Source of the DNA: Desulfocarbo indianensis
Lineage (GTDB): Bacteria > Desulfobacterota > Desulfarculia > Desulfarculales > Desulfarculaceae
Reading direction: 5' to 3'
Assembly: GCA_001184205.1 (NCBI GenBank)
Contig: LBMP01000001.1
Span: 124,001-188,000 of the forward strand
DNA length: 64,000 bases
In this document: positions 32,355 through 34,008 of the stretch, piece by piece
Numbering within the stretch: position 1 is the stretch's first letter
How the letters are laid out: each line of letters opens with the position of its first letter
Position numbers and translations under genes: made by a program
The notes under the pieces: model-generated
Seen by the model: only the letters and a program-made list of their open reading frames with translations
The model's database searches: none
What the model was told of the DNA's origin: nothing

Positions 32355-32661
32355 GGGGTAATCCTCCTGCTTGGTTTGGCCCTGGTCCCTTTTAAGTCGC
32401 CATGCCTTGGCATGGGGAGGCAGGGCTGTAATGCCTTGGTCCCTACGCCGTTGGCGGCAAATGGCCGCAAGCGGCGGAGACCCAGGGTGGGATGGCCGGC
32501 CAGGTCCGCTCTGGTGTTCGATCCGTGGTTGCCGGAACGATAAGCGACGGAGGAAGCGCGAGCCGTCCCTTTGCCTTTTCCGGCGCCTGCAAAGGGGGCT
32601 CTCCAACAGCGGCTGTCAGCATGGTTCTGGAAGGAACCGGACCGGGCCCGCCCAAGAATAA
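32355..32661 (-). other. Untranslated leader between attenuator and trpB2
   Basis: About 300 bp without a convincing gene. One hairpin stands out: CCCTTTGC and GCAAAGGG (8-bp stem) around 32568-32597. I see no second terminator and no known riboswitch. The length is unusual for a classical trp attenuator. Confidence 0.4.
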
Positions 32662-32688
32662 AGCGGGCCCCGCTGGGGGAGGCCCGCT
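32662..32688 (-). terminator. Transcription attenuator of trpB2
   Basis: AGCGGGCC and GGCCCGCT form an 8-bp stem followed by TTATTCTT on the minus strand. It lies between the Trp leader peptide and trpB2. The 5' arm and loop (32675-32683, GCCTCCCCC on the minus strand) are perfectly complementary over 9 bp to GGGGGAGGC in the leader ORF (32736-32744), an alternative pairing that would break up the terminator. Confidence 0.7.
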
Positions 32689-32720
32689 CTGTCTTAGGCG
32701 TCTTTAACTGTAAGCGACGC

Positions 32721-32804
32721 TTAGCACAAGGGCATGCCTCCCCCCGGCGACCAGCGCCACCACCAGAGAAGGACCATGCCGTTGTTTGCAGCGTTCTTAT
32801 ACAT
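32721..32804 (-). CDS. trpL: Trp leader peptide of the trpB2 attenuator
   Basis: A 27-codon ORF with Trp at positions 14, 15, 16 and 18 (WWWRW), preceded by GGAGAGA with a 6-nt spacer. Four Trp codons in five is the hallmark of a tryptophan-operon leader peptide. When charged tRNA-Trp is scarce a ribosome would stall there and allow the antiterminator to form. A terminator hairpin lies 33 bp beyond the stop codon and the controlled gene is trpB2. The peptide itself has no expected function. Confidence 0.85.
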   Translation of the reverse strand: MYKNAANNGMVLLWWWRWSPGGGMPLC

Positions 32805-32964: not shown

Positions 32965-34008
32965 TCAGAAGCGCACCGTGATGACGCCGGGTTTTTGGCT
33001 GGTGGCCCGGCCCACCGGCCAGCGGCCCAGGCCCAGCCGCTCCAGCATGGCCAGCGCCGTGTCCAGGCATTCCTCGTTTATGCCCATGAGCATGCCGCCG
33101 GAGGTCTGGGTATCGGCCAGGAGGTCCATGACGATGGCGTCCTCCGGGCCCTCCACCCGCACGGATTTGGAGCAGAAGTTGCGGTTGGCGTGGGAGCCGA
33201 TGGGCACCAGGCCCATGGAGGCCATCTCCCTGGCCTCCTCCAGGATGGGCACCGCGCCGGCTTCTATCTCCAGGCCCACCCCCGAGGCGCGGGCCATTTC
33301 CAGGGCGTGGCCCAGGAGGCCGAAGCCGGTGACGTCGGTGCCGCCGGTGACCGAGCAGGCGGTCATCACCTCCACCGCCGGGGCGTTTAAGGTGCTCATG
33401 AGCTCCACCGCCTGGGACACGGCCTGGGGGCTGGCCAGGCCGGCCTTCAAGGCGGTGGCGATCACCCCGGTGCCCAGGGGCTTGGTGAGCACCAGGCGCT
33501 GGCCGGGTTTTAGCCCGGCGTTGGTCACGATGCGCTCCGGATGCACCAGGCCGCTTACGCTGAGGCCGTATTTAAGCTCAGGGTCTTCCACCGAATGGCC
33601 GCCCACCAGGACCGCGCCCGCCTCGTGCACCTTTTCCTGGCCGCCGCGCAGTATCTCCCGGAAAACCTCGGGGGGCATGTCCTTGACCGGAAAGCAGCAT
33701 ATGTTCATGGCGCAGATGGGCCGCCCGCCCATGGCGTAGACGTCGGAAAGGGCGTTGGTGGCCGCGATCTGGCCGAAAAGATAGGGCTCGTTCACGATGG
33801 GGGTGAAGAAATCCACGGTCTGAATCAGGGCGAGCTGGTCCGAAAGGCGGTACACGCCGGCGTCGTCGGCGGTGCCCGCCCCCACCAGAAGGTTGGGGTC
33901 GCTCTCCACTGGCAGCCCTTCCAATATCGAGGCCAGGTCCCCTGGCCCGATCTTGGCGGCTCAACCAGCGGCGCGGGCCTTTTCGGCCAGCTTGAACTGG
34001 GAAGCCAT
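32965..34008 (-). CDS. selD: Selenophosphate synthase, selenocysteine-containing
   Basis: 347 residues when the in-frame TGA at 33963-33961 (codon 16) is read as selenocysteine: ATG 34008 behind GAGGAG, then ...RAAGUAAKIGPGDLASIL.... Position 16 is the catalytic Sec/Cys of SelD and Lys19 is the conserved catalytic Lys. Glycine-rich ATP-site segments follow (VDFFTPIVNEPYLFGQIAATNALSD, GGHSVEDPELKYG, GGTDVTGFGLLGH, SGGMLMGI). It makes selenophosphate from selenide and ATP for Sec-tRNA synthesis. A plain ORF call starts at 33924 and loses the first 28 codons. A bSECIS hairpin follows the UGA. Confidence 0.95.
33926..33951 (-). promoter_or_regulatory. bSECIS element of selD
   Basis: In the mRNA, AUCGGGCCAGG and CCUGGCCUCGAU form an 11-bp stem with one bulged U and a GGA apical loop. 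The stem begins 9 nt after the UGA and the loop lies ~20-23 nt after it, with a G first in the loop. These are the features expected of a bacterial SECIS recognised by SelB. Confidence 0.8.

Follow-up and report, generated by a model that had tools for sequence, protein, structure and literature searches.

The window analysed here, a 64,000-nucleotide stretch of the Desulfocarbo indianensis genome, carries on its minus strand selD, whose stop codon lies at 32965, and trpB2 (32354-30990), and the elements of a putative attenuator are located in the interval between these genes. The trpB2 product scored 737 bits against NCBIfam NF009057 (cut-off 366) and 649 bits against TIGR01415 (cut-off 519). 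Because it exceeded the curated cut-offs and its gene was unlinked to trpA, it was assigned to TrpB2 (TIGR01415/PRK12391, alternative TrpB); trpBA is found on another contig, together with other trp genes. An operon partner of trpB2 was sought, and none was evident at the window locus or in most of the loci inspected; the gene is apparently monocistronic. From the enzyme family, indole salvage would be its expected role in vivo. The following features were distinguished.

32854-32825, minus strand: putative sigma-70-type promoter of the leader transcript, TTGACT-18 nt-TAGGTT (from the sequence)
32817-32811, minus strand: Shine-Dalgarno sequence GGAGAGA of the leader peptide, 6 nt ahead of the ATG (from the sequence)
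32804-32721, minus strand: leader peptide ORF MYKNAANNGMVLLWWWRWSPGGGMPLC, 27 codons, ATG at 32804-32802, stop codon ending at 32721 (from the sequence and orthologous Trp clusters)
32780-32766, minus strand: region 1, GGCATGGTCCTTCTC, just ahead of the Trp codons, partner of region 2 (from the minimum-free-energy fold)
32765-32751, minus strand: regulatory Trp codons 14, 15, 16 and 18, TGGTGGTGGCGCTGG (from the sequence)
32745-32731, minus strand: region 2, GGGGGGAGGCATGCC, just past the Trp codons, partner of region 1 or of the terminator 5' arm (from the fold and an exact 9-nt complement)
32688-32654, minus strand: intrinsic terminator, stem 32688-32679/32671-32662, tail TTATTCTT (from the fold and covariation)
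32653-32361, minus strand: long spacer from the attenuator to trpB2, single copy, no strong structure
32354-30990, minus strand: trpB2, 454 aa, TrpB-like PLP enzyme, the controlled gene (from NCBIfam NF009057 and TIGR01415)
30963-30940, minus strand: terminator after trpB2, 8-pair stem with a T-rich tail

The 27-codon frame with Trp at positions 14-16 and 18 and the good ribosome site described in the first-pass annotation are both present in the minus-strand sequence. The hairpin, which had been placed 33 bp past the leader stop with 8 bp, was found to begin 32 nt beyond it, and its 8 GC-rich pairs can be extended to 10; the U-tract that follows is interrupted (TTATTCTT). The complementarity that had been called perfect is indeed exact over 9 nt, GCCTCCCCC (32683-32675) being the reverse complement of GGGGGAGGC (32744-32736). 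Thus, the locus has the parts of a ribosome-mediated trp attenuator: a short ORF with a start codon, a ribosome site and clustered Trp codons, an intrinsic terminator between this ORF and the gene and, as computed, an antiterminator that competes with the terminator and is freed by a stall at the Trp codons. A 1:2 anti-antiterminator pairing was also computed for this locus. This pairing and the plausible promoter TTGACT-18-TAGGTT were additional to the elements noted earlier. The -10 element of the promoter (TAGGTT) is weak and was missed by a consensus scan; a TTGACT-type promoter also precedes the leader at a locus of the same genus (L003). An Rfam covariance-model search gave no match at the gathering score in the window or in 15 loci.

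When the 181-nt attenuator region was folded, as had been proposed, its z-score was -4.0 relative to dinucleotide shuffles, and the rival structures were computed. The 1:2 helix, in the fold of the leader alone, had an energy of -44.5 kcal/mol, the 2:3 helix (32744-32736 with 32683-32675, plus further pairing) -35.2 kcal/mol and the 3:4 helix, which is the terminator, -21.4 kcal/mol; within the energy model, this is the right order of stabilities for an attenuator. Ribosome stalling was modelled with a 12-nt downstream footprint, the footprint and the energies being model assumptions. When the modelled stall was at Trp 14, 15 or 16, the core of region 2 was wholly free and 2:3 was the best fold, and with the stall at Trp 18, about half of this core was free. 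With the ribosome at the leader stop codon, the terminator was the best fold.

It could be supposed that the hairpin is merely the terminator of the upstream selD, which ends at 32965 on the same strand, approximately 280 nt upstream of it, and that the Trp-rich ORF merely occurs by chance in GC-rich sequence. TGG-rich stretches are frequent in this genome, and in a genome-wide search for the TGGTGGTGGCG pattern, the reversed control pattern was at least as frequent. However, on both strands of the 64-kb window, the leader is the sole ORF in the range of 8-45 codons that combines three or more Trp per six residues with a following terminator, and no such pair was found in 446 control windows. 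The pair also keeps its place beside trpB2 in many other genomes, with cognate complementarity. This explanation was rejected on the basis of the orthologue and control tests described below and is considered highly improbable.

For these tests, TrpB2 orthologues were drawn from the family of the window, from a collection of genome contigs and from a phylum-wide sample, and their upstream regions were searched for ORFs in which six residues include three or more Trp and for a terminator within 130 nt. In the first collection, a Trp-cluster ORF was found in 25 of 95 upstream regions and was accompanied by a terminator in 23 of them, whereas 0.5 and 0.0 cases, respectively, were expected from shuffles; upstream regions were limited to 420 nt in this collection, and the leader of the window itself lies beyond this limit and was not counted. 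In the second set, the corresponding numbers were 24 and 20 of 89, compared with 16 and 0 among 446 control windows taken from loci of this kind. The two sets partly overlap through shared public genomes, as illustrated by the identical leaders of L030 and L174. At the same-genus locus L003, the leader MRAVVSAEYRWWTWWWRSAPPGGPRLC (RWWTWWWR) and a terminator are present 139 bp before trpB2, and within the family, the motif W(W)WRWQPPGRG is common. Judging by record titles, which can err for MAGs, further leader-bearing cases belong to MAGs of Desulfobacterota, candidate division KSB1, Spirochaetes and Bacteroidales. Such a leader is lacking in approximately three quarters of the sampled trpB2 genes; at L004 and L005, where trpB2 loci have approximately 80% identity, other upstream sequence is found instead. 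At L004, this sequence includes a different hairpin, accompanied by a U-run, approximately 300 nt upstream of trpB2. The orthologue comparison suggested in the first-pass annotation thus revealed the Trp-rich ORF and terminator before both close and distant trpB2 orthologues, and predicted Trp attenuation of trpB2 is recurrent across phyla and not an oddity of one genome.

Outside the Trp cluster, the leader peptide is poorly conserved, even within the genus. This bears on the possibility that the attenuation is real but that the main action of the leader, as transcript or as peptide, is exerted in trans, a function published for the trp leader peptide peTrpL of Sinorhizobium (PMC7298713). In favour of it, the product of termination would be a small RNA. 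Nevertheless, the poor conservation of the peptide beyond the Trp cluster argues against a conserved peptide function, and a mainly trans-acting role appears extremely unlikely.

The pairings themselves were studied in an alignment (A2) of 13 family attenuators. The terminator helix was paired in 93.4% of cells, and its covariation score was 0.236 versus 0.114 in shuffles, none of 500 shuffles reaching this score. The antiterminator was paired in 78.6% of cells versus at most 55% when the partner was slid; its covariation alone was modest, the score being matched by 44 of 500 shuffles. In a swap test on 22 non-redundant attenuators, with trpB2 and trpD leaders pooled, the pairing of a leader with its own terminator arm was 4.5 kcal/mol better than with swapped partners (0 of 20,000 permutations). 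The z-scores of leader:terminator duplexes at individual loci were weak in GC-rich DNA, and only this pooled permutation test was persuasive. In most cases, the pairing region is situated close to the leader stop or ahead of it, from a few to 16 nt past the last Trp codon. It may be concluded that, of the two hairpins whose conservation was to be compared, the terminator covaries, and the antiterminator shows a register peak and cognate complementarity.

Other Trp attenuators were found in the same genome. Contig C279 carries a complete tryptophan pathway and three further candidates: a single attenuator ahead of trpE and a serial pair ahead of trpDCFBA.

L267:12445-12250 (contig C279), minus strand: trpE attenuator at the head of the aromatic gene cluster, leader MHMSQGLDHKPSAPAAPSLTAGQGFGFYWWWRSPKTVSFALDRPS, ending ...FGFYWWWRSPKTVSFALDRPS
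L102:12549-12220 (= L267:649-308; contig C279), minus strand: tandem Trp attenuators located between tyrA and trpDCFBA, with leaders MIAMAAWRNWWWRKNAEVPRAGVV and MRKQIITIVSLRGVWGWWWRSAAGEVCPR and one terminator per leader

The terminator that precedes trpE (L267:12225-10837) is GCCCACCGTCTTAGTGACGGTGGGC-TTTTCATTTG, and the leader sequence is complementary to its 5' arm. On the 3' side of trpE are trpG, a DAHP synthase gene (called aroF), aroA and others including aroB and aroQ, followed by aroC, pheA and tyrA; trpC and trpF were assigned by reading the sequence, without a family search. The core CTGGTGGTGGCG is common to all four Trp leaders of the genome. The interval separating the tandem leaders is hardly long enough for a promoter, so transcription of the second leader probably depends on polymerases that have read through the first. 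Tandem leaders were found in 9 of 15 scorable trpD loci of the family (L136, L137, L140, L141, L142, L144, L145, L147 and L151), with weaker second terminators at L144 and L145, and also at L244, which belongs to another family.

These data are compatible with a regulon of four attenuators under the control of Trp-tRNA charging, a proposal that is regarded as fairly likely. One attenuator would act on trpE, a serial pair would gate trpDCFBA within an aromatic cluster of more than 12 kb (trpE-trpG-aroF-aroA-...-aroC-...-pheA-tyrA-A-B-trpDCFBA, where A and B are the tandem attenuators), and one would act on trpB2, which lies apart from the others. Repression would be multiplied by the two serial attenuators, which would also shield the Trp genes from the transcription required for Phe and Tyr, and the repeated sensing of Trp-tRNA would mark bacterial TrpB2 as Trp-biosynthetic on Trp starvation.

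In four Bacillota MAGs, trpB2 is preceded by a T-box (L036:2671-2950, L038:61-334, L056:63-338 and L066:2598-2872). The first three scored above the Rfam gathering score, and L066 reached 92.6 versus 93 bits; in all four, the specifier position aligns with UGG (Trp). In three of these MAGs, a tRNA-Sec gene was observed just 3' of trpB2 on the opposite strand (L036:4426-4517, L038:1813-1904 and L056:1939-2030 minus). The location of trpB2 near tRNA-Sec there and beside the selenium gene selD in the window is possibly a coincidence.

Since a Trp-containing leader peptide ahead of an indole-metabolism gene recalls TnaC, the possibility was also considered that the leader is an arrest peptide responding to free tryptophan, so that trpB2 is induced at high tryptophan levels. 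Against it, the leader contains a run of adjacent Trp codons while the remaining peptide is poorly conserved, the terminator is factor-independent and is combined with an antiterminator, with no evident Rho-dependent arrangement, the sibling leaders sit on the biosynthetic trpE and trpD, and the Trp-specifier T-box of the Bacillota trpB2 is a sensor of uncharged tRNA. Induction by free tryptophan is therefore judged to have a very small probability.

Over the -10 element of several trp promoters of the family, immediately ahead of the leader or the gene, a palindrome GTATAC-N-GTATAC or a close variant was found (trpB2 loci L010, L016, L017, L008, L014 and L011; trpD loci L138, L144, L146 and L148), which suggests an additional repressor. 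The palindrome is absent from the trpB2 and trpD promoters of the window genome itself. The Trp repressor (PF01371) was rejected as its binder because a search of 20 family genomes revealed no TrpR homologue.

The transcription-attenuation architecture proposed in the first-pass annotation is thus supported by the conservation in orthologues, the covariation of the terminator and the cognate leader:terminator complementarity; the parts of the attenuator, their conservation and the competing pairings can be read directly from the sequence. With a probability of about 0.92, the region 32854-32654 (minus strand) would be a classical ribosome-mediated transcription attenuator through which charged tRNA-Trp governs the expression of the stand-alone trpB2, and trpB2 is very probably switched on only when charged Trp-tRNA is low. 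When Trp-tRNA is ample, the ribosome would clear the four Trp codons and arrive at the stop codon, where region 2 would be masked or re-paired with region 1 and become unavailable to region 3. Region 3, unpaired by region 2, would then form the 3:4 terminator, and RNA polymerase would halt approximately 300 nt ahead of trpB2. When Trp-tRNA is scarce, the ribosome would stall at codons 14-16 and disrupt 1:2; region 2 would capture the emerging region 3, the terminator would be blocked, and trpB2 would be transcribed. That the leader promoter is used, that the leader is translated and that tryptophan elicits the response is inferred.

The stretch of approximately 300 bp between the attenuator and the gene, which had been called odd, is in fact longer than in relatives: the distance from the leader stop to trpB2 is 366 nt here versus 139 nt in the same genus and 100-132 nt in most of the family, and the excess over close relatives is approximately 230 bp. 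A repeat element was ruled out because the spacer is a single copy in the genome, and a structured RNA was rejected because no strong structure was found (z-score -1.8). A promoter scan of the spacer (32361-32653, minus strand) gave no match.

On the evidence of its sequence, the element is a known kind of regulator, a ribosome-mediated trp attenuator, on an unusual target, a stand-alone trpB2. The earlier remark that an attenuator on a lone trpB2 is unusual thus holds for the target of a trp attenuator but not within trpB2, where the same control recurs in several phyla. In E. coli trpL and other proteobacterial trp attenuators, a leader peptide with Trp codons is combined with helices 1:2, 2:3 and 3:4 and an intrinsic terminator. 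The main survey of proteobacterial attenuation is reportedly that of Vitreschak et al. (2004). The E. coli trp attenuator was modelled quantitatively in PMC1183508. The Trp-codon leader, the three competing helices and the intrinsic terminator are common to E. coli trpL and the present element, whereas the target here is a lone trpB2 and not trpE, the attenuator lies approximately 300 nt ahead of the gene, region 2 occupies a part of the leader ORF that follows the Trp codons and precedes the stop, and there is no Rfam match.

The openly licensed PMC papers searched yielded no earlier account of an attenuator on a stand-alone trpB2 or of serial Trp attenuators. In Corynebacterium diphtheriae, a Trp attenuator was predicted in 2005 before trpB2A (PMC1262725). 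In both cases, the predicted Trp attenuator precedes a second trpB copy, but the corynebacterial trpB2 is in an operon with trpA, and its name may only number the second copy, whereas the gene studied here is a stand-alone alternative TrpB (PRK12391/TIGR01415). The Bacillota Trp T-boxes likewise sense Trp-tRNA charging and have trpB2 as a target, but here the RNA itself binds uncharged tRNA and no leader peptide is involved. Predicted control by Trp-tRNA charging through at least two RNA mechanisms in several phyla links TrpB2 to tryptophan supply, and the recurrence in related bacteria suggests that TrpB2 serves tryptophan synthesis. The trpB2 attenuator therefore bears on the question of the physiological role of TrpB2, which as a stand-alone enzyme has been described as indole-scavenging (PMC2700814) and for which, in one archaeal case, another, not yet identified selective function was considered (PMC1854888).

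The tandem trpD attenuators are a more novel observation than the trpB2 attenuator. They share with the Salmonella mgtCBR leader (PMC3641672) the presence of two regulatory short ORFs per leader; however, the mgtCBR pair is not made up of leaders for the same amino acid, whereas the trpD pair consists of two serial Trp leaders with their own terminators. Such tandem attenuators would be a natural case of same-signal serial attenuation, useful for models of sensitivity such as that in PMC1183508.
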